Positions 20,473 through 54,390 of a DNA stretch of 64,000 nucleotides are shown here, piece by piece. Within the stretch, counting starts at the first letter, position 1; each line of letters starts with the position of its first letter. Below the pieces are notes generated by a model, which saw only the letters and a list, made by a program, of their open reading frames with translations, ran no database searches and was not told the DNA's origin. This DNA comes from Pseudofrankia sp. DC12 (GTDB lineage Bacteria > Actinomycetota > Actinomycetes > Frankiales > Frankiaceae), in NCBI RefSeq assembly GCF_000966285.1, contig NZ_KQ031391.1:2577208-2641207 (forward strand). The letters are read 5' to 3'. The translations under genes were made by a program, and so were the position numbers.

Positions 20473-23400
20473 GTGATCGCGACGGTGCGGGTGTTGCGGG
20501 CGTCGCACCCCGGGCAGGTCGCGAAGGCAGCGCGGGACGTCGTCGCCTACGTACAGGGCGGCCAGCCCGAAGCGTCCAGCCCGCTGGCGGTGTACTACAG
20601 CCGCGCCCGTGCACAGGGCCGGGCGCGGGGGGCCGGCGCCGAGCTGGTCGGGCTGGACGGGCAGGTGTCCGCGCTCGCGCTGGAACGGCTGCTACGCGGT
20701 CGGCACGCGGTCAGCGGCCGTCCGCTGCTGTCCGCCGCCGGCTCCGCCGGCCGAGTGCCACGGCGCCCTGGCGCCGGTCCCGGCGAGGCAGACGAGCTGC
20801 TGACGCTCGCAGCAGCGGCACGGATCGCCGGAGTCGGACCGACCTATCTACGCCGCCTGGTCAGCCGCAACGCCCGCACCCTGACCGCGGCCACGACGCC
20901 GGCCGGCCGCACAGCCACCCCAGCCGGCCTCAGACGCCCGGCTGACCGGGATGCGGCCCGAGCCACCGCCGACGACGCGAAGGCCGCGGCCGGAGGGCTG
21001 CCAGCCGGCCAGTTGGCGGGAGTCCGGGGGCGGGGAGGCCAGTGGCTGGTACGCCGCGCCGAGTTGGAACGGTGGTGTGCCCAGCGGGTCCCGCCTGCGA
21101 CGGTGCTGGGCTATGACCTGGTGTGCTCGGCGCCGAAGTCGGTCAGCCTGCTGTGGGCCTTCGGTGACGACGCCCTGCGCGCGGACGTCGCCGCCGCGAT
21201 GGAGGCCGCGGTCGACGCGACGATCGGCTACCTGGAACGCCACGGTGTGTTCGGCCGGGTCCGCGGGCAGAGCCGCCACGCCCTCGGCCTGGCAGTCGCC
21301 TCTTATCTGCACGACGTGTCCCGCAGCGACGAGGCACACCTGCACATCCACAACATCATCATCAACGCGGTGTTCGTCCCCACCGAACCCGACGACGATC
21401 CGAGCGCGCCGGCGGGCGGCGGGGAGTGGCGCACGATCGACGGCGAGGCGCTGCTCACCGAGGTCAGGACCGCCGGCTACGTCGGCGCGGCCGTGTTGCG
21501 CCACGAGCTGTCCGCCCGCCGGGCTGTCGACTGGCTCCCGGTGCGCAACGGCGTCGCGGAGATCGCCGGTTTCCCGTCCGACCTGTTGACGGCGTTCTCG
21601 ACCCGCCATGGCGAGGTTATGGCGGAGTTCACCCAGCTCGTCGCCGCCGGACTCGAGCCGTCGGCGGCGACCAAGGATGCGGCGCAGCGCGGGTCGCGGG
21701 CGCCGAAGCGGGTGCTGGCGGACGCCGAGGTCGACGCGCTGCAACGCGACCGGCTCACCGCGACCGGCTGGACCATCGACGCTGTGCGCCACCTGGCCCC
21801 GGCCCGGCCCGCCCGTTCAGGCACCGCGACGTCCCCGCCGTCCGTGGACAGGGATGTGCGGGCGGTTGGTGCGCTGTTTGACCAGCTGTCGGGCGCGGAT
21901 GGGCTGACGGCGCGGGCGACGACGTTCACCCGCCGCCAGGTCGTCGAGCAGGTCGCCGCCTGGGCCGGTGACCGCCTCGGCGCCGACGCGATCGAACGCC
22001 TCGCCGACCGCTACCTCGCGGACGCCCGTGTGGTGCTGCTGCACGACACCAGCCGCACGCGCCGACGCCACGAACCCGAAGCGCTCTACACCGTCGAAGG
22101 ACTCCTCACCGTCGAGGACACCCTGCTGGCACTGTGCCGCCAAGGCCAGGTCGCTGCCGGAGCGATCCCGCGCCTCCTGCTGGACCCGGGTCTCCTGAAC
22201 GCCCAGCTCGCCGCCGCCACCGCCCACCCTGCTGCACGCGAGGCCGGGCCGCGGCTGACGGACGAACAGGCCGAACTGGTCCGCCGGCTGCTCGACTGCG
22301 GTGACCTGGTCCGCCCCGCGGTCGGCCCGGCCGGCACCGGCAAAACCGAGGCCATGCGGGTCCTGACCGCGATCCTGCACAACGGCGGGCGGACCGTGCT
22401 CGCGACCGCCCACGGCGGCCGCCAAGCCGAGGAACTCGCCGACCGCATCGAAATTCCCGCCCGCGTCGTCGCGAGCTGGCTGACCCTGCTCGAGCACACC
22501 GACGACCCGAGCACCGTCTGGCCACCCGGCTCGGTCCTCATCGTCGACGAAGCCACCCAGGTCCCCACCCGCGACGCCGAACAGCTCCTGCGCTACGCCA
22601 CCCGCACCGGCACCGTCCTCATCCTGCTCGGCGACCCCGCCCAGCTCGGCTCCGTGTCCGCCGGCGGCTGGTTCACCCACCTCGCCACCCACACCCCGGC
22701 CATCCCGGCGCTGGCAACAGTGCACCGCCAGGCCGGCCCGCAGCTGGCGCCGATCCGCGCCGCACTCGGCGCGCTACGCGCCGACACACCGGCCGCGACC
22801 CGCGCCGCCCTCGACGAGCTCGCCCGCCTCGGGCACGTCCACCTCGCTGAGAGCGCCACCGTCCTGCTCGACCGCGCCGTCGAGGGCTGGTACACCGAAC
22901 GCCGCCAGGCGCTTGAAGCCAAGCCGAGCCAAGCCACCCACTCCCCCGGGCGACGAGTCGAGCCAAGTCATCGCCAGCCGCGGGCCACACCCGCCCCGAG
23001 GACCGCGGATCCAGACGGCCCTCCCAGCCAGGAAGACGCCGAGCCGGCAGGGCTCACGCCGGCGCGGCCGGCGATGGTCCAGATGATGGCGCAATATCAG
23101 CGCGACGTGGACACCCTCAACACCGCCGCCCGCGCCCTGCTCACCGACGACGGCACCCTGACCGGACCCACCCTCACCGTGGCCGGCCGGCAGTTCCGTG
23201 TCGGGGACGAGGTCATCACGCTCACCCAGGCCGGCCACACCCTGATCCCCGCCGGCCGGCCCGACTCCGCCTACATCCGCACCGGCACCGTTGGCATCGT
23301 CACCGCCGTCCACCTGCACGACACCACCGCCGCACAGGCCATCGAGGTGTCGTTCCCGTCCAAAGGCACGGTCCGGGTCCCCTGGGCCTACCTCACCCAC

Positions 23401-25191
23401 CGGTTCGAGGACGGACGCGACGGCGGCCTCGCTCACGCCTACGCCATCACCGCGGCCAAGGCCCAAGGCGCCACGATGGACACCACCCGCGCCGTCGTCC
23501 CTGACGACACCACCCGCGCCGGCCTCTACGTCATGCTCTCGCGCGCCCGCACCGACCTACACGCCTACCTGCTACGCCGCGACCAACTACGCGACCGTGA
23601 CGACGACGAATCCTGGCTCCCCGCCGTCGAAGCCGGCCCCGCTGACGGCGACCCTCTCGACCGGTTCGCCGAACGGCTCGCCCGCAGCCGCGCCGAACGG
23701 CTCGCCACCGACCACGACCCGCACGCAGAGGCAGCCCACCAGCTCCGCGGTCGCCACACCCTCAGCGAACTGACCGCCGCGAGGCTCGCCCACCAACCAC
23801 CGCAGCCGGCAGACTCCGCGCCGGCAAGCCAAGCCCCCACCGGACCGAGCGGCGGCGAGCCGGCCGCGCCGCGCCGCGAGCCGTCCCGCGGCCACCTGTT
23901 CGGACGGCGACGCGGCCGGCCGGCGCCGGCAACCGAGGACGCCTCGACCGGGACGCCCAGCAACGGGTCCAGGCCGCCGCACGAGCCGAGCCAAGCCGAG
24001 CCAAGCCAGGCCGCGCTGCGGGTCAATAGCGGGCCGACACCAGCCGAGCCGAGCCAGACCCTGGTGGAGCCAGGCCGCGCGGCCAACGCCACGTCAGAGC
24101 CACCCACCGAGCCGGCAGGGGCCGCTCTGCCACGCCAGGTCCTCCTGCGGCGCGCCGAGCTGGCCGCCGAAGCCGCCATCCGCGCCGCGGCGCTCGCCGA
24201 CCCACCCGCGCAGCTCCTCGCCCGCATTGGCCCCCTGCCAACCTCCGGCGCGGCCCGGGCGACCTGGGACGACGCTGTCGCCGCCCTGGCGATTCACCAC
24301 GCCCGCCACCAGCCCGCCGCGCCCACCGACACCCTCGGTCCGCCACCAATCACCGCACCGGACGGGCGGCACCGCGATCCATGGCTCCGCGACCACTACC
24401 AGGCCATGCGCCTCGCCGCGGACTGGGCCGAGCGACTACCCGACCCGGCCCGCGCCCATTTCCACCACCCCGACGAAACCGTGCCCCGCGCCCGCGCGGT
24501 CGCCGGACTGCACGCCCTGCTCGACCACGGCCACCCCGCCGACCGGCTCGCCGGCACCCTGGCCGCAGAACCGGTCACCGACATCCGCACCGGCGCCGCC
24601 GTCCTCGCCCACCGCGTCACCGACCTCTGCCACCAAGCCCACCTCGACCCGGCCCACTACGAGCTCCCGCCCCCAGCCACCGTCCACCACGAGTGGCAGC
24701 GCGCCTTCCGCCTCCTGCACGCCGCCGAGACCCACCACCTTGCCACCCGGCCCACGGTTGACCTGGCCGCCGAACGCCACGCCCTCGACCAGCAGCTCCA
24801 CCAGCCCCCGGCCGCACCCGACCACCTCGCCGGCCCGCGCGATCCGCGCGAGATCCAGACACGGCTGAAGCGACTCGACTCCGCCCTGGACCGCCAGACC
24901 AGCCACGCAGTCGTACGCGCCACCCACGAGCCCGCTGGCTACCTCACCGGCCTCCTCGGCCCTCGCCCCACCGCGCAGCCCGCTGCCACGGCCTGGGACG
25001 ACGCCACCCACCGCATCGAGCACTACCGCCACCACGTCCTCGGCCTGCCCTACAACACCCCCGCCACTCCCGACGACCCCGACCCCGCCCACCACGCACT
25101 CGGCCCCCGCCCCACCGACCCTGCCGGCGCCGCCGCCTACGACCACGCCCTGCACCCCGATCCAGCCCTCGACCCCCAACTTCCCCTGTAG
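20473..25191 (+). CDS. TrwC/TraI-type conjugative relaxase-helicase
   Basis: The 1572-residue protein joins a MobF relaxase to an SF1 helicase. Tyr41-Tyr42 (AVYYSRARAQG) are the likely nicking tyrosines, and HLHIHN (His289, 291, 293) is the three-His metal site. An insertion (about residues 95-200), partly Pro/Ala/Gly-rich, separates them and includes a helix-turn-helix-like segment LTLAAAARIAGVGPTYLRRL. The helicase has Walker A GPAGTGKT (618-625), Walker B LIVDEAT (689-695), and a HAYAITAAKAQGATMDTT motif near 990. Two low-complexity stretches with repeated Glu-Pro-Ser-Gln interrupt the C-terminal half. It would nick oriT and unwind the transferred strand; the repeat region upstream is the likely oriT. 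The start is GTG. Confidence 0.9.
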   Translation: MIATVRVLRASHPGQVAKAARDVVAYVQGGQPEASSPLAVYYSRARAQGRARGAGAELVGLDGQVSALALERLLRGRHAVSGRPLLSAAGSAGRVPRRPGAGPGEADELLTLAAAARIAGVGPTYLRRLVSRNARTLTAATTPAGRTATPAGLRRPADRDAARATADDAKAAAGGLPAGQLAGVRGRGGQWLVRRAELERWCAQRVPPATVLGYDLVCSAPKSVSLLWAFGDDALRADVAAAMEAAVDATIGYLERHGVFGRVRGQSRHALGLAVASYLHDVSRSDEAHLHIHNIIINAVFVPTEPDDDPSAPAGGGEWRTIDGEALLTEVRTAGYVGAAVLRHELSARRAVDWLPVRNGVAEIAGFPSDLLTAFSTRHGEVMAEFTQLVAAGLEPSAATKDAAQRGSRAPKRVLADAEVDALQRDRLTATGWTIDAVRHLAPARPARSGTATSPPSVDRDVRAVGALFDQLSGADGLTARATTFTRRQVVEQVAAWAGDRLGADAIERLADRYLADARVVLLHDTSRTRRRHEPEALYTVEGLLTVEDTLLALCRQGQVAAGAIPRLLLDPGLLNAQLAAATAHPAAREAGPRLTDEQAELVRRLLDCGDLVRPAVGPAGTGKTEAMRVLTAILHNGGRTVLATAHGGRQAEELADRIEIPARVVASWLTLLEHTDDPSTVWPPGSVLIVDEATQVPTRDAEQLLRYATRTGTVLILLGDPAQLGSVSAGGWFTHLATHTPAIPALATVHRQAGPQLAPIRAALGALRADTPAATRAALDELARLGHVHLAESATVLLDRAVEGWYTERRQALEAKPSQATHSPGRRVEPSHRQPRATPAPRTADPDGPPSQEDAEPAGLTPARPAMVQMMAQYQRDVDTLNTAARALLTDDGTLTGPTLTVAGRQFRVGDEVITLTQAGHTLIPAGRPDSAYIRTGTVGIVTAVHLHDTTAAQAIEVSFPSKGTVRVPWAYLTHRFEDGRDGGLAHAYAITAAKAQGATMDTTRAVVPDDTTRAGLYVMLSRARTDLHAYLLRRDQLRDRDDDESWLPAVEAGPADGDPLDRFAERLARSRAERLATDHDPHAEAAHQLRGRHTLSELTAARLAHQPPQPADSAPASQAPTGPSGGEPAAPRREPSRGHLFGRRRGRPAPATEDASTGTPSNGSRPPHEPSQAEPSQAALRVNSGPTPAEPSQTLVEPGRAANATSEPPTEPAGAALPRQVLLRRAELAAEAAIRAAALADPPAQLLARIGPLPTSGAARATWDDAVAALAIHHARHQPAAPTDTLGPPPITAPDGRHRDPWLRDHYQAMRLAADWAERLPDPARAHFHHPDETVPRARAVAGLHALLDHGHPADRLAGTLAAEPVTDIRTGAAVLAHRVTDLCHQAHLDPAHYELPPPATVHHEWQRAFRLLHAAETHHLATRPTVDLAAERHALDQQLHQPPAAPDHLAGPRDPREIQTRLKRLDSALDRQTSHAVVRATHEPAGYLTGLLGPRPTAQPAATAWDDATHRIEHYRHHVLGLPYNTPATPDDPDPAHHALGPRPTDPAGAAAYDHALHPDPALDPQLPL

Positions 25192-30555: not shown

Positions 30556-31713
30556 CTAGCTTGGCGGTCCAATCGGCAAATGGGCCCACGGGTCCGCCTT
30601 ACCTTTCGGCGTTTGACCGGTCAAAGGGTTGATAGTCTGCTCCGCCGCGTTCATATAAACGACGTATCCATGCGGGTACCGACTCGTCGGGTCCATCAAC
30701 CGAACTTCGACGACGCGGGGGTTCAGCCCCTGAGTGCCCGCAGGAACGGCGAAAGCCCAGCCTGTTCCTTTTCTGGTCAGTTTTCCTTTCGCCCCGAATG
30801 GAAGGGGCAGGGTTTCGCCGTTAGGCCCCTGCACCGTCCCGATAGGGCAGTTTATGTTATGGACCAGACTGCTTGTGTCTCCTACGCGGATGTAGAAGGT
30901 GTGGGTTTCCTGGACTGTGAGGTCCCACATGTAGCCGCTGGCAGGCAGGACAACTGCGGTGGCGACGGTGGCGACGGTGCCGTTCTCGGTGTGGAGGTGG
31001 TCGCCAGGTTTAAGGTCGATCGCCTCGGTCCAGGCGCGGGTGGTGTCGTCGAAGAAGCGGTGGTGTTCGGTGGTGTGGATCGCTGAGCGGACGCCGTCGG
31101 TCTCGACGATGAGGTCGAGCAGGTCGGTGTCGTGGTTGATCCATACATTGGTGACCGTGCGGGCGCTGGTCTGTCCGGTGGCAGGGTCGGTTGCTCGTAC
31201 CTTGTCGCCGACCTTGATCTTTCCGATCGGTTGTGAGGTGCCGTCAGCGAGAAGGACCTCCGTGTCCTCGGTGAAGCTTTCTCCGCAGCCCTGCAAGGCC
31301 TTACCAAGCTCTTTTCCATAGGTATCTTCGTTCGGCCCGCTCAAGAACGACCAGACGCCTTTCAGTAGATCTTCGTCTGCGTTCGTGTATTGCGACCAAT
31401 CGTTATTGGGGTCGCAGGGGTCCTTCGCTGCGGCGACGGGGCCCGGATCGGGACCACAAACCGATTTCTTGAGCCAATCACCGGGCACCCCCGGAATTTT
31501 AGTGCCCGGCGTCAGCGAGACATTCTGCACATTACTCTTGACATTACTCTTGACGTTACTGGCGGCCGGCAGCTTCACTCCGGCTTTCTGGAACGCGACC
31601 GCGGCGCTGACGCCGGCCCAGAACTTGTCCGCGCCCATGACGGCGATCTGCCGCTGCGCCTCCGGGCTCAGAGCCTGTTTTAGATCTTGTCGACTGTCGG
31701 TCGCGTGGTCCAT
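30556..31713 (-). CDS. Polymorphic toxin: Hint domain with Ntox17-like tip, N-terminus lost to an IS
   Basis: The 385-residue remainder has a spacer, a pretoxin Hint (intein-like) domain from CGESFTEDTEVLLADGTSQP (about residue 144) to VHNINC (about 290), and a ~95-residue tip. The tip (FAVPAGTQGLNPRVVEVRLM, YVVYMNAAEQTINPLTGQTP, DPWAHLP) resembles the Ntox17 family, predicted RNases of contact-dependent systems. Hint would release the tip by autoproteolysis after export. The first ~14 codons, including the ATG, come from the end of the IS5-family element, so the native N-terminal secretion and filament part is gone. A short VKSN repeat (DNA near 31528-31560) lies in the spacer. GC is lower than in the flanks. 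Confidence 0.72.
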   Translation of the reverse strand: MDHATDSRQDLKQALSPEAQRQIAVMGADKFWAGVSAAVAFQKAGVKLPAASNVKSNVKSNVQNVSLTPGTKIPGVPGDWLKKSVCGPDPGPVAAAKDPCDPNNDWSQYTNADEDLLKGVWSFLSGPNEDTYGKELGKALQGCGESFTEDTEVLLADGTSQPIGKIKVGDKVRATDPATGQTSARTVTNVWINHDTDLLDLIVETDGVRSAIHTTEHHRFFDDTTRAWTEAIDLKPGDHLHTENGTVATVATAVVLPASGYMWDLTVQETHTFYIRVGDTSSLVHNINCPIGTVQGPNGETLPLPFGAKGKLTRKGTGWAFAVPAGTQGLNPRVVEVRLMDPTSRYPHGYVVYMNAAEQTINPLTGQTPKGKADPWAHLPIGPPS

Positions 31714-32620
31714 CGCGTGACGTGCCCGCCGCGGGCGAGCCGGCGGGCCATGGTTCGGATCATGGCCCAGCGGATGAAGGCCTCGGAGCTCGCCGGATCG
31801 CGTTCGTAGTCACGGGCAAGGCGGCGATGACCCGTGATCCAGGCCAAGGTTCGTTCCACGACCCAGCGCCGAGGCAGGGGCTGGAAGCCTTTCTGACCGT
31901 CTTTCTTCCGGACGACCTGAACCGTGGTCTTCACGATCTTCGCGGCCCACTCGACGAACCTCCCAGCGAAACCGCCGTCCGCCCACAGGAACCGACACGA
32001 CGGCGTGGCGAAGTAATGGTCCACGAGCAACTGGCGGGCGCCGTCCCGGTCCTGGCGACTCGCCGGCACGACGAGCACCGCGAGCAGCAGACCCAGCGTG
32101 TCGACCACGATGAACCGCTTACGACCGTTGACCTTCTTCCCCGCGTCGAACCCCCGCGACCCCGCCGCCACCGTCGGCGCGCCCTTCACCGACTGCGAGT
32201 CGATCACCCCAGCGGTCGGCGACGCCGCCCGGCCCTCCACCCTGCGAACCTCGTCCCGTAAACCATCGTGGACCTGGACCGTGACGCCTTTCCGCTTCCA
32301 CCGAGCGAAATACCCATAGACCGTCGCCCACGGCGGGAAGTCCACCGGCAACGCCCGCCAGACCACCCCATTGTGCGTCACATACAGAATCCCATCCACA
32401 ACATCCCGGCGATCATGCTTCTCGCGCCGCCCGTCCTTCGACGGCGCCGGCAACAGCGGCGCCACATACGCCCACTCCGCATCGGACATATCGGAGGGAT
32501 ACCGCGGAGATCGACTCATGGAACGACCGTGACCAACCCACCCCAGTCGATCACGTCACCACGCCGAACCCCAACCACGCGGCCAACACCCAGTACACAC
32601 CATCAAGATCTAAAACAGGC
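31673..32620 (-). mobile_element. IS5-family insertion sequence, 948 bp
   Basis: Perfect 17-bp terminal inverted repeats, GCCTGTTTTAGATCTTG at 31673-31689 and its complement at 32604-32620, bound one intact transposase gene. The flanks do not share a target duplication: the left side is the toxin gene and the right side is in the middle of a WD40 repeat. A deletion or recombination at one end after insertion is the simplest explanation. Confidence 0.88.
31680..32519 (-). CDS. IS5-family DDE transposase
   Basis: The 279-residue enzyme begins with the DUF4096-type N-terminus (MSRSPRYPSDMSDAEWAYV ... PAPSKDGRREKHDRRDVVDG) and has the catalytic triad in expected order: Asp in GVIDSQSVKGA, Asp in FLWADGGFAG, and Glu in RRWVVERTLAWI. 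Length and motifs are those of an intact IS5-group transposase encoded in one frame with no frameshift. The stop lies inside the terminal inverted repeat. It catalyses cut-and-paste or related transposition of its own element. Confidence 0.92.
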   Translation of the reverse strand: MSRSPRYPSDMSDAEWAYVAPLLPAPSKDGRREKHDRRDVVDGILYVTHNGVVWRALPVDFPPWATVYGYFARWKRKGVTVQVHDGLRDEVRRVEGRAASPTAGVIDSQSVKGAPTVAAGSRGFDAGKKVNGRKRFIVVDTLGLLLAVLVVPASRQDRDGARQLLVDHYFATPSCRFLWADGGFAGRFVEWAAKIVKTTVQVVRKKDGQKGFQPLPRRWVVERTLAWITGHRRLARDYERDPASSEAFIRWAMIRTMARRLARGGHVTRWTTRPTVDKI

Positions 32621-32944
32621 ACTAAGGGGCACACATTGGCCGTCGGCAGCGCCGACAAGACGGTTCGGCTATGGGACCTGACTAACCGCGCCCGCCCGGC
32701 ACCCCTCGGCCAACCCCTGGCCAGCGCCGACGCCGTGCTCTCGGTGGCGTTCTCCCCGGACGGGCGCACGTTGGCCGTCGGCAGCGAAGACAAGACGATG
32801 CGGCTGTGGGACCTCACTGAACCAACTCGCCCGACACCCTTTGGCCAACCTCTAACCGCCGTAGACTCGGTGGCGTTCTCCCCAGACGGGCGCACGTTGG
32901 CCGTCGGCAGCGAGAAGACAGTGCGACTTTGGCGGCTGCGCTGA
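32621..32944 (+). pseudogene. C-terminal WD40-repeat fragment cut by the IS
   Basis: The frame enters straight from the IS end and encodes two and a half WD40 repeats: HTLAVGSADKTVRLWDL, VLSVAFSPDGRTLAVGSEDK and TMRLWDL, VDSVAFSPDGRTLAVGSEK ending VRLWRLR. Only the 3' end of a longer beta-propeller gene of the nSTAND-WD40 type remains; everything before the IS junction is missing. No independent start with a ribosome site exists. It is a remnant, related to but distinct from the two minus-strand WD40 genes nearby. Confidence 0.8.
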
Positions 32945-33255
32945 GCGCCCAGCGCTAGGCCGGTGTTTACTCAGATCCACGAGATGGCGAGTACGCTCGA
33001 CGCAATTATCAAGCCGAACCGCGCTGTCCCATTGAACACAAGAGCCGTCGTGACTGCTAGGTAAGACAGGGCAGACCGTTCAACCCGCGTCGGTGCATCC
33101 CGGGCTGGACACAGGTCACGGGTCTCGGCGGCGACCGCCTCGTCAAGGTCACTTGCGGCAGGCGGTTGACAGCTCCACCATTTCTTCGACCGATCGGCTC
33201 GGAGTTTGCCTCCCGTAAAGTCGAGGAAGGTCGCGTCGTCGGAAAAGCCTCTGAT
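32945..33255. other. No gene seen
   Basis: About 310 bp between the WD40 fragment and the TPR fragment. Short ORFs here have no protein-like composition, ribosome site or repeat structure. Confidence 0.4.
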
Positions 33256-34658: not shown

Positions 34659-34955
34659 TCAGGGGCACGACCGCCTGTATGCGATACCCGGCACTTCCGC
34701 CAACCATTCCTCTGGCGACAGTCCCCCGCCCGTTGCATAGCATGACCATTGCTGGACGTGGCCGCTTAACGCGGATATCTGCTTAATGTCCCACAGCCGC
34801 AGCCGGCCACCGATGGTGGTGGCAAGGGTGTGCTTGTCGGGGCTGAACGCCAGTGCATTCACGCTCTTGTCGTCATCGACGCTGGCGATGCGGGTTGGCG
34901 CGTTGGCGTCGGTGATGTCCCACAGCTGCAGCACATAACCGTGCCCACCTAGCCA
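34659..34955 (-). pseudogene. C-terminal WD40 fragment of an nSTAND-type protein
   Basis: The minus frame carries one and a half WD40 repeats (YVLQLWDITDANAPTRIASV; VNALAFSPDKHTLATTIGGR) and a C-terminal tail with the pattern GGGLSPEEWLAEVPGIAYRR. The tail corresponds to GGGLTSTEWVQYIPDLTYQR at the end of the large WD40 protein ending at 37731, so the two are paralogues. Nothing upstream in this frame continues the propeller; it abuts the 3' end of the nuclease-like gene. It is a decayed remnant. Confidence 0.7.
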
Positions 34956-34959
34956 CCGG

Positions 34960-36195
34960 CTACGATTCGGGTCCGATGATGATCGAGAGGATCGAGCCGT
35001 TGGGTCCGGCAGAGGTAATCCGGACTCGCCCTCCAGGCTCGACTGCCGCTCGCGGCGGTTCCTCAGTCTCGGCGAGGCTTTGCGCGAAGTTCGACTGGGC
35101 ATCGAGGAGCCCGGTCGGGTTGACTCTCGCGAGCTCCTCGTCGACCGCGCCATCGATGCCGCGACGGATGGTCAGTGTCCGCCCGTTGACTCGGGTCCGC
35201 CTCTCGACTCCCCACGCATAGCCCGAGCCGTAGGGGGTTCCAAAGCGCCTGCGCGGCGGGCCCTGCCCGCCCGCGGGCACGCTGTGCCGCTCGTCCTGCG
35301 CCCACTCTGCGGCTGCGCGTAGGTTGCCGCCGAAGTCGGCGAGGGCGGTCCACGCGATCCTCAATGCGGCGAACGTCGCCTCATCATCCAAGGTCCGCAT
35401 GTTGCCCCTGGCCACTCTGCGGTCATCTGGCGCGGCCTCGACGCCGTCGCACTCAAGCTCCACGGCCCGGTAGGCCACGGTGTCTCTGGAAGTCACCGTA
35501 CTCACGGCGAGGCCAGGAAGCGGGGCGCCGCCGATCTGGATTCCGTCGAGCTGGATCACGGCGCCGGCCAGTTGCCTGACGGCGTAGTCGGCCCTCGCGG
35601 TTCCCTTGCACTCCAGGAAGAAGAGGCGAAACGGCCAGCGCGACCCCGGAACGTGCGCGATCAGCAGGTAATCGGGGTGCTTGCCGTCGTCCTCGACGGT
35701 GAGCTTCCTCCCATGTAGCTTGAGGAAGCCTTGCTTGCGGAGTAGGTCGACATCGACAACCTCGATCAGTCCGGGGCGGAGGCCGCGGTCCCGAATCCAG
35801 TCCTCGGCGATGCGCACGGCGAAGCCGATGCCGAGTTCCTCGGACGTGACCCGGCGCTGGTTGCCCCTGATCTCCCGGCCGGCGTCGCTGACCACGAGCC
35901 GGCCCGCCTTGTCGTGGGCGAAGAAGCCGAGATAGCGAAGGGGTGCCCACCGCTGGTAGAGCTCGATGAGCTCGTCCGGGTACGGGGGCTGGGTGGCAAG
36001 GGCGAGCCTGTGCAGTGCCTCGGCCGGCTGGAGTCGGATCCCCGATACCAGGCCAGCGGCCGGAACGATCCCCTTGGGCGGCGTGATGCCCGCCTTGCTG
36101 ATCTGGCTCTTGATCTCCTTGACCAAGGTGGAGTCGCTGCACCCCTCGAACATGATCTCGGAACGTAGAACCCTTTTCGCCTCAGCGAGATCCAC
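34960..36195 (-). CDS. Putative PD-(D/E)XK nuclease-like protein
   Basis: The 411-residue protein has no signal peptide or membrane helix. Residues 119-136 form an amphipathic helix with acidic residues (EELGIGFAVRIAEDWI), followed by HPDYLLIAHV (Asp175) and RLFFLECKGTARADY (Glu195, Lys197). The order Glu, Asp, x19, Glu-x-Lys after two beta strands is the core of the restriction-endonuclease-like fold. The N-terminal ~110 residues and C-terminal ~180 residues are unrecognised and could bind DNA or a partner. It stands alone between repeat copies A and B among other conflict genes, so a defence nuclease is plausible but unproven. Confidence 0.55.
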   Translation of the reverse strand: MDLAEAKRVLRSEIMFEGCSDSTLVKEIKSQISKAGITPPKGIVPAAGLVSGIRLQPAEALHRLALATQPPYPDELIELYQRWAPLRYLGFFAHDKAGRLVVSDAGREIRGNQRRVTSEELGIGFAVRIAEDWIRDRGLRPGLIEVVDVDLLRKQGFLKLHGRKLTVEDDGKHPDYLLIAHVPGSRWPFRLFFLECKGTARADYAVRQLAGAVIQLDGIQIGGAPLPGLAVSTVTSRDTVAYRAVELECDGVEAAPDDRRVARGNMRTLDDEATFAALRIAWTALADFGGNLRAAAEWAQDERHSVPAGGQGPPRRRFGTPYGSGYAWGVERRTRVNGRTLTIRRGIDGAVDEELARVNPTGLLDAQSNFAQSLAETEEPPRAAVEPGGRVRITSAGPNGSILSIIIGPES

Positions 36196-36558: not shown

Positions 36559-37290
36559 TCAAGGGTTACGCTCGGCGTGTCGATTTACGCTTTGCCCGAA
36601 AAAATATCCAAGAATGATTAGAAAACTGCTGCTCACAATTTCGGGAACTGCGGTCTTGCTAAACATTGCCACCACTAGCGCTATGGTGAGTGCGACGAGC
36701 AAAAAACTTCCGATAACCGTCGCGATCGACTCTCTGCCAAGAAACTGCTGAAGTACGACCCATCGCCTTTCCATGACTTCGAGTTTAGTCATAGCCAACT
36801 CGCGATCAACTCTGGCCCGCTCCGCTTCTTGAGCCCGCCGCACCTGCTCGGATTGCTGGCCCAAATCGCGAGCTTGAATCTCAAGCTCTTCAACCTCTCT
36901 GGCCAGATTCTCACGAATGGCAAGATCGTCAATCTGTCCGATCAGGTCACGAATCGATTCGATCTTCTGGGAACCACCCAGAAGACGAATCCGACTTAGA
37001 ACGAGTTGCTTTCGCTCCAGCAGTAGCGGCAACACGCCGACTTCAAAGCTAGATTCAACGGAAGCGAACACTAGCGCACTGTTGGACTTGAGTCGGAAGA
37101 GCCCGAACTGCTGCGGATTAGAGATCGCGGCATCTAGCACTGAGAGAGAGTCCTGCAATTGAGTGAGATTCTGCTTCTCTATTGCGTCGAGCGATAGTCC
37201 GTGACCAGCAAGCTCGCCTTCAAAGAAGTTTCGCGCTTCTTCGCGAACTCGCTCATGGCTCTTCTCAATGGCTACGTCGCCGCTAGACAT
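36559..37290 (-). CDS. Coiled-coil protein with two C-terminal membrane helices
   Basis: This is a 243-residue protein of clearly lower GC than its surroundings. A long alpha-helical, Glu/Arg/Gln-rich region (about residues 105-175, LAREVEELEIQARDLGQQSE and VRRAQEAERARVDRELAM) predicts a coiled coil, followed by two hydrophobic helices (about 190-210, IATVIGSFLLVALTIALVVA; 218-235, IVSSSFLIILGYFFGQ). No enzymatic motif is visible. As a single-gene module between repeat copies B and C it could be a membrane effector or anchor, but no family is recognised. Confidence 0.6.
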   Translation of the reverse strand: MSSGDVAIEKSHERVREEARNFFEGELAGHGLSLDAIEKQNLTQLQDSLSVLDAAISNPQQFGLFRLKSNSALVFASVESSFEVGVLPLLLERKQLVLSRIRLLGGSQKIESIRDLIGQIDDLAIRENLAREVEELEIQARDLGQQSEQVRRAQEAERARVDRELAMTKLEVMERRWVVLQQFLGRESIATVIGSFLLVALTIALVVAMFSKTAVPEIVSSSFLIILGYFFGQSVNRHAERNP

Positions 37291-37730: not shown

Positions 37731-40562
37731 TTAGCAAGTGCGCTGGTACGTGAGATCAGGAATGTACTGGACCCACTCGGTGGAGGTGAGGCCGCCGCCC
37801 GCTCGTGCGCACGCAGTGGGCACGAGGGCCTTTCGTAGGCCGGCAAGGTAGCTGAGGTCCCATCGGATGGGTTGCGGAAGGGCCGAACCGTTAATATTTG
37901 CCACTGTCAGCTCGGTGTCGTCGGCGTTGAAGGCGATTTGACTAAGGCAGCAGGACTCGACTGCAAGTGTTGGGAGGTCGATGCGGCGCGGGGACGCCAA
38001 GTCGGCTACATCCCAGAGGGAGATCGTCTCTCCGCCGACGGCGAGCGTGGTCGAGTCATGGCTGAATGCCAGTGATCTGGCTGAGCCGAGGTGGCCGGAA
38101 AGCGTTCCGCCGAGCCGACGTGGGGAGGTTGGGTCCGATAGATCCCACAGGGTCACGGTGGAACCAGTCGCACCGTCGTAGGTGGCGCTCGCGAGTGTCT
38201 TCCCATCAGGAGCGAAAGTTGGTAGCTCAATGGACTCGGTGGGGACGGATGCCAGGAGCCGAGGAGATTCCGGACGGGACGTATCCCATATCTCCAAGGT
38301 CAGTTTTCCGTGGACGTATCCTGTCATGATAAGCTTGGTGCCGTCTGGGCTCCAGATCATTTCTGCGCCGTAGCTGTCAAGGTCGGTCTTGGGAGTTCGG
38401 AGGCGGCGGGGCTCGCTGGGATCAGCGAGGTTCCACAGCTCCAGCGTTCCCTGGGCGGTCCCTATGGCCAGCATCTTTGCGTCGGCAGTGAAAGATGGGG
38501 CAGTGGAATAGTCTGCGACGATTGGGAGCTTGGCCAGGAAGCGGGGAGAGGTCGGGTCCGCGATATCCCAGAGCTCTACCGGTTCGTTCTGGTCCGCTGC
38601 CGAGTAGCTTTCAGCGAGGCCATCGTACGCGTCGCGGGTCACGGATATCTTGGTGGCGGACACGACAAGAAGTTTGCCGCCGGGAGCGAACCGGGTGCTC
38701 CGTACGAAAGATCCACCGGGCACGCCAGGCAGCGTTGCGACGCGTCGCGGAGATCCCGCGTGGGTGATGTCCCAGATTTCTACTGGCCCATCGTGTTCTT
38801 TGGGGTCGGTAGCGGCCGTCGAGGTCTCGTCGAGACCAGCGGCGCGGACGAGTGTGGTGCCATCGGCGGTAACGGCAACATCTTGGTTCCGGAACGGGTC
38901 GAACCCTTGAATGTAGTCTGGCTCCGGGTCGACTGGCGTGAGCAGTGCAGCGGGAAGGCGTCGAGGCGCGGCGAGGTCTTTGATGTGCCACAGGGCCGCG
39001 GTGGCGTCAAAACTACCCGTGGCGAGAGTGGCGCCGTTCGGGGCGAATGCCACGGCGTCCACGCCATCGGTGTGGCCTGTGAAGGTCTCTGTACGTTTCG
39101 GGTCGACTGGGTCGGTTACGTCCCAGACGGTGACGGTGCTGTCGTTACTGCCGATCGCGAGGGCCGATCCGTCGCGGTTGAACGCGAGGGCGAGCAGGTT
39201 GGTCGTATGCGTGACGACCGGTTGGCCTATGCGGCGAGCCGTCGCGGGGTCGTGGACGTCCCAAAGGGCAAACGTGCCGTCGGAGCTACCGCTGACCAGG
39301 GTGGTGCCGCCAGGCGTGAACGCGACCGCGTTGACGCCTCGAATCTGTTCCATAGGCTGGTCGAGTACTTCCCCGTTGGCCTCGCCGAATGGCCCGTCTC
39401 CTTCTGTGCTGCCCTCTAGGCGCCGTGGCGCGGTGGGATCCCGGATGTCCCATAGGTGCACACCGGAGTCTCCGCCGACAGCCAGGGTGTTGCCGTCGCT
39501 GGTGACCGCCATGGACAGCACATTGAACGTGTCGTGGATCGGGGTGCCGAACGGCCTTGGTGCGATCGGGTCGGAGGCATCCCAGAGGATCACTGTGCCG
39601 TCGGTGCTGCCGCTGACGAGCGTCTTGCCGTCGGCGGTGAACGCGACAGCCCGGATGTTGCCGGTGTGGCCGCGTAGCGGCTGACCGAGGCGCCGCGGCG
39701 CGGCCGGATCGGAGGTGTCCCACAAGATGATCTCGGCGTCCGTGGCTTCGACGCCGGTGCCGCTGGTATGGGCACTTCCGCTGCTGCCAGTAGTGGCGGT
39801 CGCGAGGACGTCTCCGTCTGGAGTGAACGCAACGGCGAGAACGCCGCCGGTCAGACCGGCGAGCGGATGGCCGAATGGTCGGGGCGAATCCGGGTGGGAC
39901 ACGTCCCACAGGGAAACGGTGCCGTCGGCGCTGCCGGTAGCCAGTGTCGTGCCACTGCCAGTGAAGGCGACCGTGTTGACGGTGGACTTGTGTCTGGTGA
40001 TCGTCGCGGCGAGCGGGCTGCTGCCGACGAGAGTGTCAAGCAGGTTCGCCCGGGCGCCGGGGCTGGTGGCGATGGTGTCGGCGGCGACGGCCAAGCGGAG
40101 CGCCGTGCGTGGGTCGGTTTGCCGGACGCCGTCGGCGCGGGCGAGCAGTCCTTCGGCGATCGCCGAGCGCCGAGCCTGTTCCGTCGCCTTTTCGCGATCG
40201 ACCGCTCGTTGCCACTGCACCAGGGCGGTGAGGCCACCACCGGTGACGAGCAGCCCGAGTACGGCCAGTACGGCCACGGTGCGCAGACGTGCGCGACGGC
40301 CTTGTCGTTGACTGGCGGCGAGGAAGTCGTGGGCCCGTGGACTGAGCTGGGCATCGCTGCGGGTGTCGCTGGCCCAGGCCGCGGCCACGGCGTACCGCAA
40401 AGTCAGTTGTCGCAGGTCAAGGCCAGTTTTCGGCACTGCGCCATGGCGGGAGGATCCTGCCGCCGCCTTGATCTTATGATCTTGGTTTGGTGACTGTCCG
40501 TCGCTGACGGCGCCAGGCGCGGGCGGCTCGCGGCCCCCTGAGCTAATGACTGACAGTGACAC
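37731..40562 (-). pseudogene. WD40 half of an nSTAND protein severed by an ISAs1-family element
   Basis: The open frame is 943 codons, but the first 59, including the ATG, are encoded by the left end of the IS. Native sequence starts at AAAWASDTRSDAQLSPRAHD, continues with a membrane helix (LRTVAVLAVLGLLVTGGGLT), then a long series of WD40 repeats (VNTVAFTGSGTTLATGSADG; AVAFTADGKTLVSGSTDGTV; ALAFNRDGSALAIGSNDS and others), probably two propellers, and the tail GGGLTSTEWVQYIPDLTYQR. WD40 propellers in nSTAND proteins sense a ligand and control the NTPase. If expressed from inside the IS, this half would lack the nuclease and NTPase domains, so it is presumably non-functional. Confidence 0.85.
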
Positions 40563-42204
40563 CGGTGAGGTCGGGTCTGTCCGGGAGATGCCGGGTTGTC
40601 ACGTTCGGCGTGCCGGCGGGGAGAAGGGCAACGGGGCGCGGTTAGGACAGGGGCTTCCTAGGTCCGATGTCCGCCGGAGGCCCCGTTGCCCGTCCAGTCT
40701 CGCATGCCCGTCTCGCGGAGCTCCCGGTCGACGGCGGCCCCTCGACGTCCCGCCCGTAGGGCGGCGACCGCGGCGAGGAAGGCTGTGGTGACGGCGGCTC
40801 GGTCCGAGGTGGCGAGGGCGCTGGCCGCGGCCGAACGCGAGGAGACCCTGGCTCGCGCGCAGGTGACAGTGAATGCGCTGGTCGCGCGGGCGGTGGCGGT
40901 GCGGGCACTGGCGGGCGGGTCGCTGCTCGAGGCGTTCGCGTCGGTGGTCGACCCGCGTCACCCGCGCGGGGTGCGCCACGCGCTCCCGGTGATCCTGACG
41001 TTGTGCGTGGGGGCGGTGCTGCGTGGGGAGACCGAGGTCCTCGACGTGGCGGTCGCGGTCGAGCACGCCGACCAGGTGCTGCTCGCCGCGTGCGGCGCCC
41101 GGACCTCGCCGACGACCGGCCTGTTCGAGGCCCCGTCGCAGGACACGGTGCTGCGCGTGCTCGCGAAGCTGAGCGCGGCATCCCTGGACGAGACCGTCGG
41201 GGCCCACCTGTCCGGCCGCGTGCGCCGCGTCCACGGCGAACGCCCCGACCCCGACGACCCTGCCGGCCCGGACGGGAACGGGCAACCGGCGCACGCGGGC
41301 CGGGCGGGGCGGCGGCGTGAGCAGCGCGCCGCGCGGCGTGCGTTCGCCGCGGACGGCAAGGCGCTGCGCGGCGCCGCGCGCGACGGGACGCGCACGTACC
41401 TGCTCTCGGTGGCGACCCACGACGAGGGCGTCGTCGTCGCCCAGCACGAGATCGGCGAGAAGACCAACGAGGTCCCCGCCCTGGTCCCGCTACTGAAGGC
41501 CCTGGACGCCTACCAGCCCCTGGCCGGCGCCGTGATCACTGTCGATGCCGGCCACACCGTACGCGCGCACGGCAGGGCGATCCGCGCGCTCGGCGCGCAC
41601 TTCGTGTTCACCGTCAAACTCAACACCCCGGCACTCAATGCCGACTGCGAGGCCGCCGCGGACTGGAACAACCTGCCCGTCGAGCACGCGGCCGAGACCC
41701 ACGGCCACGGACGCGAGGAACTGCGCACGATCCGCCGCGCTCCGGCGACCGCCGAGATCCGCGCCCGCCACCCGGGCGCCCGCACCGTCGCGCTCATCGA
41801 GCGCTACGCCACCCACACCGTCCACAAGGGCAAGGGCGCCAGGCGGGTCACGCAGACCGTGACCACCGCGGTGTCGGTGTTCGTCATCACCAGCCTGGAA
41901 CTCGACGAGGTCACCGCCGAGGAACTCGCGGGCTACGTGAAGGGCCACTGGGCCATCGAGAGCAAGGTCCACTATGTCCGTGACGTCACCTACCGTGAGG
42001 ACGCCTCTCAGGTGAGGACCGGTGACCTCCCCCGAGTCATGGCCACGCTCCGTAACACAGCGATCAGCCTGATCCGGCTCGCCGGCCACAAGGCGATCAA
42101 GCCCACCATTCGGCGGCTCAAGCACGACACAGCCCTACTCCTGAACGTCCTCGGCCTCAAACACCCCGCCTGACCAGCACAGACAGACTTTGCGGTACGC
42201 CGTG
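40386..42204 (+). mobile_element. ISAs1-family insertion sequence, 1819 bp, with 9-bp target duplication
   Basis: Perfect 19-bp terminal repeats CACGGCGTACCGCAAAGTC (40386-40404) and its complement (42186-42204) bound an intact transposase gene. GGCCGCGGC is duplicated directly on both sides (40377-40385 and 42205-42213). Removing the IS and one duplicate rejoins the interrupted nSTAND gene in frame, which fixes the ends to the base. Confidence 0.93.
40686..42173 (+). CDS. ISAs1-family transposase
   Basis: The 495-residue protein (TTG start at 40686; an ATG follows at 40704) has the family's N-terminal block, LLEAFASVVDPRHPRGVRHA and ILTLCVGAVLRGETEVLDVA, then the DDE-like core: AFAADGKALRGAARDGTRTY, HEIGEKTNEVPALVPLLKAL, VITVDAGHTVRAHGRAIRAL, FVFTVKLNTP, and near the C-terminus GHWAIESKVHYVRDVTYRED. 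These are the ISAs1 hallmarks. Between about residues 180 and 218 a Pro/Arg/Gly-rich insertion extends the usual length of about 380-400 residues. It appears intact. The stop lies 31 bp from the right end of the element. Confidence 0.9.
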   Translation: MPVQSRMPVSRSSRSTAAPRRPARRAATAARKAVVTAARSEVARALAAAEREETLARAQVTVNALVARAVAVRALAGGSLLEAFASVVDPRHPRGVRHALPVILTLCVGAVLRGETEVLDVAVAVEHADQVLLAACGARTSPTTGLFEAPSQDTVLRVLAKLSAASLDETVGAHLSGRVRRVHGERPDPDDPAGPDGNGQPAHAGRAGRRREQRAARRAFAADGKALRGAARDGTRTYLLSVATHDEGVVVAQHEIGEKTNEVPALVPLLKALDAYQPLAGAVITVDAGHTVRAHGRAIRALGAHFVFTVKLNTPALNADCEAAADWNNLPVEHAAETHGHGREELRTIRRAPATAEIRARHPGARTVALIERYATHTVHKGKGARRVTQTVTTAVSVFVITSLELDEVTAEELAGYVKGHWAIESKVHYVRDVTYREDASQVRTGDLPRVMATLRNTAISLIRLAGHKAIKPTIRRLKHDTALLLNVLGLKHPA

Positions 42205-42212
42205 GGCCGCGG

Positions 42213-44163
42213 CGAGGGTGAGCCGGTTTCCTTGGTAGAGGTGGACAGGGTTGCGATTGCCTTCGGTCCAGGCGTGTGCGTCGTCATCGAGGCGTTGCCG
42301 CAGGAGCTGTCCGGCGCGGTCGCTGTCGATCCACTCGCGAAGCGTGGGCCAGGCGCGTAGAAGTGCCTCGTGCGTGATCTCGACTCGATCTTCATGGATC
42401 GTGACAAGGCGGGCATCGGGTGCGGCTAACTCGGTGAGTACCCGTTGCGTGCGCTGTGGGTCTGGGGCGCTGGCGAGCAAGCGCGCGAGAGGCATGCGGC
42501 GTCGGGTGTCGTCGGTGCCTTCGCCGATCTGGACCAGGTCGAGGAGCAGGTTGCGGGCCGTGTCGTAGTGATCTTTGTCGAGTCGGGCGACGATGTCGTC
42601 GGCAGTGCTCGCGACGGCCCGGCGTATCCCGCCGGTGGCCTGGTAGGCGGCAAGGGTGAGATGCGTTCCAGCGCTTCGCTGGCAGGTCACCAGCAGCGCG
42701 TGCGACAGCAAAGGCAGCTGGCCAACCTCGTAGCTGGCCTCGGCGCCCGCGCTTCTCCCCGCTCGGGGACCGAGGTCGTCGATTAGTCGGTCGACCAGCC
42801 CTAGCTCAAGCGTCAGGCCGGCCGCTGCCGCGGGCTGTTCGACAGCGGATCGCAGCTCGTCCGAACTCATTGGGCCGACAAGCACCGGGTGAGCTTCCAT
42901 CGCCGCCCGTAGCTGCGGGAATGCCGCGAGGTGCGCGACGAAGTCGGCCCTGATACCGATCACCACGGCCGCGGCAGGTGCAGACCCGTCGTCACAGGCC
43001 GCCGCGGCACAGATCGCGTCGATGAACGCCTGCCGAGCAGCGCTATCCGTGCACTGCGTGAACACCTCCTCGAACTGGTCGACCACCAGCAGGCAGCGGT
43101 CGGCGCCGGCCGGCGGCGATTCCAGGTCGCCAGTTCTGGCGTCCTCGCCAAGCCAAGCCGCCAGCCGATCAGGGTCGGCCCGCAACTGGCCTGCCAACCC
43201 GTCAGCCGAACGCCTGGTCGCTGCGGCGACCGCTGCGGCGAGTGCGCCCAGGGGATCCCCGGTAGGCGTGAACAGAGCCCGAGGCCAGGCTTCTGATCCA
43301 GCCACGTCGAGCTGCCCCTGGCGCAGCGCGGGCAGCATGCCAGCCGCGAGAAGCGACGACTTTCCCGCGCCAGATGCCCCCATGACCACCAAGGGCCGGC
43401 CCTCCGCGTGAGAACGCGACAGCCGTCCGACGACTCGGGCAGCGAGCTGCTCCCGACCGAAGAACACCGACGCGTCGGCCTCGGTGAACGCGGCCAACCC
43501 CTTGTACGGGCAGGCCGCATCGCGGTCGCTCTGGCCTTCCAGCAGGGCTTTCGCCGCGCTGGCAGCACTCTCACGACGACGAGGGTCGACAGGTAGAAGA
43601 TCGTGAATTTGGGACAATACGTCGCCGAGGACGATCTGGCCGGCATTGGTCCGGCGGACGCCGTCGTGGACATCGAGCAGGCGGCACAGCTTGTCGTAGT
43701 GCCATACCGCCCAGTCCCGCAGACCCAGACGCTTGGCGTAACTCTCGATGAGTCGATCAACCGTGTCGACGCCGCCGCCTCCCGCCACCGGCGAGAGCAC
43801 GACGTTCGTGGTCATCAGTAGGTAGTCCGGTACTCGGCCCTTCTTGACCCTTACAGAGTCGGGCTCCAACCACTTCTCAAGTTCGGCCTTCACCTGGGCT
43901 GCGAACCAGCGCTCGCCGCTTGCCGTGTCCCCCGGGCGACGCAGGTACTTGGCCTGTACGACTCCGAAGCCGTTCCACCTACCTCGGCCGTCCCGATGCG
44001 GAAGATTCACACCGCCCTCGAACGTAGCTTCGCGTCCGCCATCCGGACCGTCGCCGAACACCTCGACACCAGGACCCAACGCAGCCAGCACCAATGCCTG
44101 CGACAGGTGCTCGAACTCCCGTTCGCCCAACCGGCTCAAGTCGTAGTCCACAGCCCGAATCAT
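42213..44163 (-). pseudogene. Mrr-like nuclease plus nSTAND NTPase half of the interrupted protein
   Basis: From the ATG at 44163, residues 1-110 resemble an Mrr/restriction-endonuclease domain: LGEREFEHLSQALVLAALG, GDGPDGGREATF (Asp41, Glu45) and FGVVQAKYLRR (Gln70-x-Lys72, the QxK form of the Mrr motif). Then comes an nSTAND NTPase: PYKGLAAFTEADASVFFGRE, Walker A GASGAGKS (262-269), Walker B CLLVVDQFEEVF (about 358), and a winged-helix region ending VHLYQGNRLTLAAA. The ISAs1 element enters exactly there; the frame then runs into the IS and stops at 42157. In Avs-like antiphage NTPases a similar nuclease is activated on ligand sensing. Cut from its WD40 sensor, this half is probably inactive or unregulated. 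Confidence 0.85.
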
Positions 44164-51560: not shown

Positions 51561-54197
51561 TTATTCGTGAGCGGTGAGGTCAATGCGGGCAGCAGCAAGA
51601 TCACGCTCCGATTTCAAGGTGAAGGGGTGTTCCTTCCCGAGAACCCGACGCATCTGGGAGAGAGTACCCTCGGCCAGCACCTGCGCTGCATGGGACATCC
51701 CAAGAGCCGCCAGTTCGAGGGCGAGGTTGGATGCCACGACCAGAGCATTGGGGTGGTCTTCGCCGAGGACCTTTCGCATCCGCGCGAGGGTGTCCTCTGC
51801 AAGCGCTCTCGCGGCCTCGTGGTCGCCGAGATCCGCCAGACGAAGCGCGAGGTTGTTCGCCGATCTCAAAGTATCGGGATGATCAACACCAAGGACGTGG
51901 CGCCGTCGGACCAGGACGTCCTCGGCCAGCGAATGTGCGGCACGCTGCTCCCCAAGTTCGGCTAGCCAAAGAGCCAGATCATTCGCTGAATGCAGCGTAC
52001 TGGGATGGTCCTCACCGAGTACACGGCGTCGGCGGAAGAGGGTGTCTTCGGCCAGCGCACTTGCAGCTTGATATTCACCAACATCAGCCAGGCGACGGGC
52101 CAGGTTGTTCGCCGAGGTCAGCGTCTCAGGATGATCAGCGCCGCGGATTCGGCGTAGGCGCCCAAAGGTGTCCTCGTCCAGCACACGTGCAGCTTGGTAC
52201 TCGCCAAGATCGGAAAGACGCAGAGCAAGATTGTTCGCCGATATCAGACTGTGAGGATGGTCGTGGCCGAGGATGCGGCGCCGCCGTCCCAAAGTCTCCT
52301 CGTCCAGGACCCGGGCCTCCTCGTGCTTTCCAAGAGCGGCGAGGACGGACGCGAGGCTGGAAGCCGCGTTCAGAGTATCAGGATGATCAGCTCCGAGGCC
52401 GCTTTTCCAGCGGACGTATGTCGATTCGGTCAGGACACGTGCGCTGGTGAGCTGACCGGCGCTGTACAGATACCAGCACGCCCGATCCAACAGGAGACGG
52501 AACCGGTCGGGTTCGAGGACATCGTCGGCGTGGGCAAGGTGGGCCGCGGCGGCGGTGATGTGGGGGACGAGCTCACCATAGGCGGGCCAGTTGGCGGGAT
52601 CTTCGGCATCTTGCGGGGTCACGGTACCCAGGAGAGTGAGGGCGGCTTCGAGGGAGGCGCGGACCGACGCCGGGGTGAGGCGAGCGCGCAGCAGGCTTTG
52701 CACGAGGCGGTGGAGCTGGACCGTGGCGCCGCTACGGCGGGCCAGCGCGTACCGACCGATCGCTGCCAACATAATGTGTGTGGTCAGCGGATCTGCCACC
52801 AGCAGCGCTCCGGGCACAGGGCTCGCGGTCCCGACCGGGATCGCGGCCAGCGGAATGGGTTCCGGGGCGAGGAAGGCAAGCTGATCGAGCAGTGCCGCAG
52901 CGGCTGGATAGCCGGCGGCGAGCTGGTCGTGAGCGGCCATCACCGTGGTAACCAACCCCGGATGGTGGGGGGTGTCCTCGTCCAGCAAAACCTGCGGGTG
53001 AACGGCGAGTAGCGCCAGGTAGCCGTCTAAGGCCATGGCCGTCGCCGCTAGGAACGCCCCGGCCTGATCCACGGCCAGCGGCAGATTGCCCAACATTTCC
53101 CCGAGCCGGTCCGCCGCCGTTTCGTCGATGTCAGGGACGTGACGGCGGATCAGCGCGGCGGTCTCATCTCGGGTGAATTCGCCGACCTCGACCAGTTCCG
53201 CGCCGACGCGGCGTAGAGCGGGGTCGCGGCACGTCAGAATAAGCCGGCCCGATGATGGCGGCATCACCGCGGCGATGGAGGCCGGGTCGGTGACGTTGTC
53301 GTAGATCATTAGCCAACCCTCGCGGCGACCCAACTCCGCCAGCGCCGCAGCTGCCCGCTCGGGCACGTCCCCCGTTCCCACCCCTAGCGTGTTAGCAAGG
53401 GCTGCAAGGCCGGCGTTCAGAGCTATCGGGGTTTCCGCGTCGACCCACCAGACCAGCGGGTAGAGGTCGGCGTACCGCCAGGCGTACTCCACGGCCAGCT
53501 GGGTCTTACCCATCCCTCCCAGCCCCTGCAACGCAGAGACCGCGACCCGCCCCAACCCGCCTGACAGCTGCTCATGGAGCCGGTCAAGAAGTCGATCGCG
53601 GCCCGTGAAGAGCAGGTTTCGCGCCGGCACCGGGCCCCAGACCGGTGGCAGCCGTCCAGGGAAGACCACCGGTGGATGCCGACCGCCCGCCAACGCAGAA
53701 CCGGCGTAGGCCCCCGGGAACGTCGTCCTCGTGCCCATCGGCGGGCGGCGGGCCCCTGCCAGACGATCCAGCAGGGTCCTGCGCGCCGCCGCCTCATCCA
53801 AGCCCACCAGGTCGATATAGATCAGCGGCGCCAACAGTCGTGGATACTCCTCCGGCCCACAAGGTCGGATCAGCACTGGCACCAGGAACCCGGCGTCTTC
53901 CGACTGACGGACGAACGCTGCCTCCCACTCGACCGCCGTCCACGTCCGGGAAAAGTAGTCCGGGCTCGCCAGCGCCAACAACCGGTCCGCCCGGCTCAAC
54001 GCCCGCTCCATTGCCGCGACGAAGCTCGTACCTGCGGTCCAGTCCCAGACATCCAGCTCGACGCTGTACCCGGCGGCCTCCACCGTCGTTGCGATCCACT
54101 CCGCCCACGCCGTATCCGGGCCGGCATGGGAGACAAAGAAGTCCACCTGGCCGGCCCGGCCGCCCGCCGCGGCCAGCGCCCCAGCGCCCGCGCTCAT
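51561..54197 (-). CDS. TIR-NB-ARC-TPR protein
   Basis: From the ATG at 54197 the protein has 878 residues in three parts. Residues 18-135 are a TIR domain (VDFFVSHAGPDTAWAEWIAT; LALASPDYFSRTWTAVEWEA) with Glu90 at the position of the catalytic Glu of NAD-cleaving TIRs. Residues ~190-470 are an NB-ARC NTPase with P-loop GLGGMGKT (225-232), a WLMIYDNV Walker B and LILTCRDPALRR. Residues ~575-870 hold about seven 42-residue TPR units with a DHPDTL-type signature. The order matches immune-type NTPases that oligomerise and trigger NAD loss on sensing. The C-terminus also resembles the FxsT-type TPR proteins of actinomycetes. The frame extends to 54341, but the internal ATG sits just before the TIR domain. 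Confidence 0.88.
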   Translation of the reverse strand: MSAGAGALAAAGGRAGQVDFFVSHAGPDTAWAEWIATTVEAAGYSVELDVWDWTAGTSFVAAMERALSRADRLLALASPDYFSRTWTAVEWEAAFVRQSEDAGFLVPVLIRPCGPEEYPRLLAPLIYIDLVGLDEAAARRTLLDRLAGARRPPMGTRTTFPGAYAGSALAGGRHPPVVFPGRLPPVWGPVPARNLLFTGRDRLLDRLHEQLSGGLGRVAVSALQGLGGMGKTQLAVEYAWRYADLYPLVWWVDAETPIALNAGLAALANTLGVGTGDVPERAAAALAELGRREGWLMIYDNVTDPASIAAVMPPSSGRLILTCRDPALRRVGAELVEVGEFTRDETAALIRRHVPDIDETAADRLGEMLGNLPLAVDQAGAFLAATAMALDGYLALLAVHPQVLLDEDTPHHPGLVTTVMAAHDQLAAGYPAAAALLDQLAFLAPEPIPLAAIPVGTASPVPGALLVADPLTTHIMLAAIGRYALARRSGATVQLHRLVQSLLRARLTPASVRASLEAALTLLGTVTPQDAEDPANWPAYGELVPHITAAAAHLAHADDVLEPDRFRLLLDRACWYLYSAGQLTSARVLTESTYVRWKSGLGADHPDTLNAASSLASVLAALGKHEEARVLDEETLGRRRRILGHDHPHSLISANNLALRLSDLGEYQAARVLDEDTFGRLRRIRGADHPETLTSANNLARRLADVGEYQAASALAEDTLFRRRRVLGEDHPSTLHSANDLALWLAELGEQRAAHSLAEDVLVRRRHVLGVDHPDTLRSANNLALRLADLGDHEAARALAEDTLARMRKVLGEDHPNALVVASNLALELAALGMSHAAQVLAEGTLSQMRRVLGKEHPFTLKSERDLAAARIDLTAHE

Positions 54198-54390
54198 GTC
54201 GGCATAGCCTGCCAGAACGGCCACACCCCTGGGGACCAGCCACCACCTGGGTGTCCTCGAACCACTGCGCCGGCACCCGGAAGTGCCCACACCCAGGTCC
54301 ACTGATCGAGACGGGACATCAGCGGCTCCGGTGCCCACCACAGCGGCCCCAGCCAGGAGGCTCGGTCAGCCAGACACCCCAAAGCAGCCG

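Follow-up and report, generated by a model that had tools for sequence, protein, structure and literature searches.

Within the window, a stretch of 64,000 nucleotides (2,577,208-2,641,207 of the 6.88-Mb single-contig genome of Pseudofrankia sp. DC12), two ORFs on the reverse strand flank an insertion sequence (IS) of the ISAs1 family. The features at this site, together with a relaxase gene elsewhere in the window, are as follows.

20473-25191: TrwC relaxase gene
37731..40376, minus strand: 3' part of the interrupted gene (hydrophobic helix and WD40 propeller region; stop at 37731)
40377..40385, no strand: target-site duplication copy GGCCGCGGC, on the 3' side of the interrupted gene
40386..42204, plus strand: ISAs1-family insertion sequence of 1819 bp; inverted ends perfect over 19 bp
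40686..42173, plus strand: ISAs1-family transposase ORF, 495 aa from the first TTG, on the strand opposite to the interrupted gene
42205..42213, no strand: target-site duplication copy GGCCGCGGC, on the 5' side of the interrupted gene
42214..44163, minus strand: 5' part of the interrupted gene (PD-(D/E)XK-like N-terminal domain and nSTAND1 NTPase)

At 30556-32519, a pretoxin-HINT (PT-HINT) ORF directly adjoins a transposase of the IS4/5 type (DUF4096), and the pair is probably a second IS-associated remnant. WD40 fragments of another gene are found at 32426-33049 (+) and 34659-34990 (-), the latter ending in the kind of C-terminal motif (GGGL..EW....P...Y...C) that is also present in the interrupted gene. 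The relaxase, the transposase, the pretoxin-HINT remnant and the WD40 fragments fit a neighbourhood that is mobile and decaying. On the other side of the IS, at 51561-54341, a TIR domain is fused to a TPR protein of the FxSxx-COOH system (NF040586, 593 bits).

Two nearby genes were considered as conserved partners of the interrupted gene and rejected. A 243-aa ORF downstream (36559-37290) has two hydrophobic stretches in its C-terminal part, has a low GC3 of 0.55 and is likely to be foreign; as an operon partner it was set aside for want of a relative among the 34 genomes compared. A 411-aa ORF (34960-36195, minus strand) carries a possible nuclease-like motif (PDYLL...FFLECKG), has no Pfam match, and shares 40-42% identity with two paralogues in the genome. 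Its relatives do not adjoin the homologues of the interrupted gene that were fetched.

The insertion element and its copies

The terminal inverted repeats of the element are perfect over 19 bp (CACGGCGTACCGCAAAGTC), and the direct repeat that flanks it consists of two identical copies of 9 bp, GGCCGCGGC. Boundaries at 40386-42204 are the only ones that give both perfect ends and the longest duplication. At one fixed offset and with this base composition, a 9-bp match is expected by chance with a probability of ~1.5e-5. The limits, ends and duplication given in the original prediction were thus confirmed in every countable detail.

The transposase scores 137.2 bits against the NCBI ISAs1 model NF033564, above the cut-off of 70, and matches the Pfam domains DDE_Tnp_1_assoc and DDE_Tnp_1. 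The element therefore shares with the ISAs1 family the transposase profile, the DDE_Tnp_1 and associated domains, perfect inverted ends and, at 9 bp, a target duplication within the family range of ~8-10 bp, and the earlier assignment to this family holds. At the DNA level, the matches of the element in related genomes are partial, with at most about 75% identity over at least 250 bases, and the known plasmids searched contain no near match. At 1819 bp and 495 aa, the IS and its transposase are longer than those of typical family members.

A second full copy of the element is present at G000:C1:1389114-1390932. It differs from the copy in the window at 1 of 1819 bases, and its first and last bases coincide exactly with those of that copy, so that the ends of the element are fixed independently. 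A third copy, at 2,487,215, is truncated at its 5' end (1160 bp, 16 differences). The flanks of the second copy lack a target duplication, and a deletion or rearrangement may therefore have followed its insertion; a deletion adjoining this copy (within L002, G000:C1:1387614-1392432) is likely. Here the IS is found where an AAA/TniB-like ORF ends, and on the other side of the IS is a methyltransferase-like ORF with an NPPW motif (both labels were assigned by eye).

Since the second full copy is almost identical, transposition appears to have been recent. The near-identical copy, the perfect duplication and the lack of frameshifts in 4.6 kb likewise support a recent date for the insertion into the gene, as had been proposed earlier from the open reading of both halves. 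No close relative with an empty site was found at the DNA level, the nearest homologues having about 51-62% protein identity.

A gene continuous across the insertion site

When the flanks were rejoined by script with one copy of the duplication, the result was a reading frame of 4605 bp (1534 aa plus stop) that has no internal stop and no frameshift, with the junction LYQGNRLTLAAA|WASDTRSDAQLSPRAHDF. This reproduces the in-frame gene of 1534 codons described in the original prediction, including its stop-free halves.

Homologues extend across the junction. A search of 97 whole genomes with 828 residues returned three homologues at 62% identity over that length, all from a single genus of the same family, and a further one, in the same genus, at 54%. 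In three genomes of the family the homologue is a single uninterrupted ORF (L131, L133 and L134), with 51%, 51% and 41% identity respectively in full-length comparison, the alignments covering query residues 2-1534 or 3-1534. A fourth close homologue (L132) is cut by a contig end. The four closest homologues align without gaps at the junction (LYQGNRLTLAAAWASDTRSDAQLSPRAHDFLAAS vs LYQGHRLATATAWAADPRNRAQMSPRARDFLAAS), and homologous sequence that spans the junction without a stop is present in 103 fetched loci, a number that includes a few repeat fetches of the same place. An intact counterpart of about 1534 residues, which the original prediction had called for, thus exists. Homologues that are normally two proteins without joint sequence, which would have spoken against a split gene, were looked for and not found. 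A two-gene origin is ruled out by the continuity of the homologues and, as judged from these sequence comparisons, the two ORFs are one gene.

The joined protein has four parts. Residues 1 to about 190 form a putative Mrr-like PD-(D/E)XK-type nuclease domain. The nSTAND1 NTPase follows at residues 219-639 and is full-length (PF20703, E=4e-120, profile positions 1-378 of 379). Just beyond the junction, at joined residues of about 687-706, is a hydrophobic helix that is conserved in homologues, and the C-terminal region contains WD40 repeats in six stretches (PF00400, E=5e-59). The nSTAND and WD40 labels given previously therefore both rest on strong profile matches.

The N-terminal domain is more difficult to name. 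Across 13 homologues D41, Q70 and K72 are invariant and position 45 is D or E, so that the D...(D/E)...QxK motif is present; we take D41, D/E45 and Q70-x-K72 to be the pattern of Mrr-like PD-(D/E)XK nucleases. The domain has no Pfam match, gives weak hits in PADLOC, and finds no credible solved structure in the PDB by sequence. A single-sequence fold model has a mean pLDDT of 38.6 (low confidence). Because this model is too poor and a solved-structure match is absent, we infer the nuclease label from the motif; the name used in the original prediction is a fair one given the conserved motif, but lacks a Pfam or PDB counterpart.

Homologous N-terminal domains head several other types of protein, namely NACHT/AAA-type proteins on plasmids of Rhodococcus, Gordonia, Priestia and Variovorax, a TPR protein (L136), and an ABC-three-component (ABC-3C) protein with CTD12. 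This spread fits a shuffled defence effector domain. Viral relatives of the domain were looked for and none was confirmed. Effectors of the REase fold occur in bacterial conflict systems with STAND NTPases (reviewed in PMC7159879).

Consequences of the insertion

The domain architecture suggests a division of labour in the intact protein: the C-terminal WD40 propeller would be the sensor that detects a trigger, nSTAND1 would be an ATP-dependent switch and oligomerisation module, and the Mrr-like domain at the N-terminus would be a DNA-cutting nuclease. The IS lies just after nSTAND1 and therefore severs the effector and the switch from the membrane helix and the putative sensor. The 5' part with the duplicate at 42205-42213 encodes 653 residues; the ORF now extends into the IS to 42157, which adds 15 foreign residues and gives 668 aa. 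What is left would be a nuclease-nSTAND1 piece with a foreign tail, devoid of the hydrophobic helix and the propeller, together with a WD40 piece for which a translation start is not evident. The target gene has most likely lost its function, and we infer that its role was in defence. Very probably, then, the recent transposition of an ISAs1-family element to a point just behind the NTPase domain has inactivated one STAND-type conflict/defence gene of 1534 residues.

The 5' ORF nevertheless still begins at its original start and contains the nuclease-like domain and the nSTAND1 span (219-639) in full, and the truncated piece might still be made and be active, free of the helix and propeller, so that function was changed rather than abolished. 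A parallel is Apaf-1, which is reportedly de-repressed by loss of its WD40 part. Unrestrained nuclease activity would probably burden the host, and we regard this outcome as improbable. Decidedly improbable is a functionally meaningful insertion, which might act as an off-switch reversible by precise excision or yield a working nuclease-STAND protein that is free of its sensor.

The 3' ORF continues without a stop through the end of the IS, where a 943-aa ORF (37731-40562) starts at a GTG inside the element. The two pieces might on this basis be separate subunits, the second being translated from the GTG at 40562, 40436 or 40388, all inside the IS. However, none of these candidate starts is preceded by a convincing ribosome-binding site, a sigma-70-type promoter scan of 40300-40700 (which covers actinobacterial promoters poorly) gave no match, and a two-gene version is seen in none of the homologues. 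Separate subunits are thus extremely unlikely, and inactivation of a single gene is the reading that we adopt.

Relation to known systems

The nSTAND1 domain was defined in bacterial conflict systems (PMC8195603). As in the conflict proteins centred on it (PF20703; PMC8195603), the NTPase of the interrupted gene has an effector on its N-terminal side and repeats on its C-terminal side; here, however, a WD40 propeller follows a hydrophobic helix, and the gene is broken by an IS. The antiviral Avs STAND proteins have the same general layout of nuclease-like effector, STAND NTPase and repeat sensor, but with TPR-type repeats in place of WD40. In L136 a homologous N-terminal domain is joined to TPRs. 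The Avs profiles in PADLOC gave no match at E 0.01.

Transposition of IS elements into cas genes, as described in PMC10359306, inactivates CRISPR-Cas. To that extent the two cases agree, in that an IS enters a defence gene and breaks it; they differ in IS family and target, and the defence role of the gene described here is putative. The event is most likely an ordinary, known kind of gene inactivation by an IS, with a defence-like STAND gene as its target.

For annotation, the two ORFs should be treated as one pseudogene. The locus shows, in clear form, a defence-like gene shortly after its loss through IS insertion. Its nuclease-nSTAND1-WD40 layout adds a further example of a nuclease-type effector domain that is common to STAND, NACHT/AAA, TPR and ABC-3C proteins.
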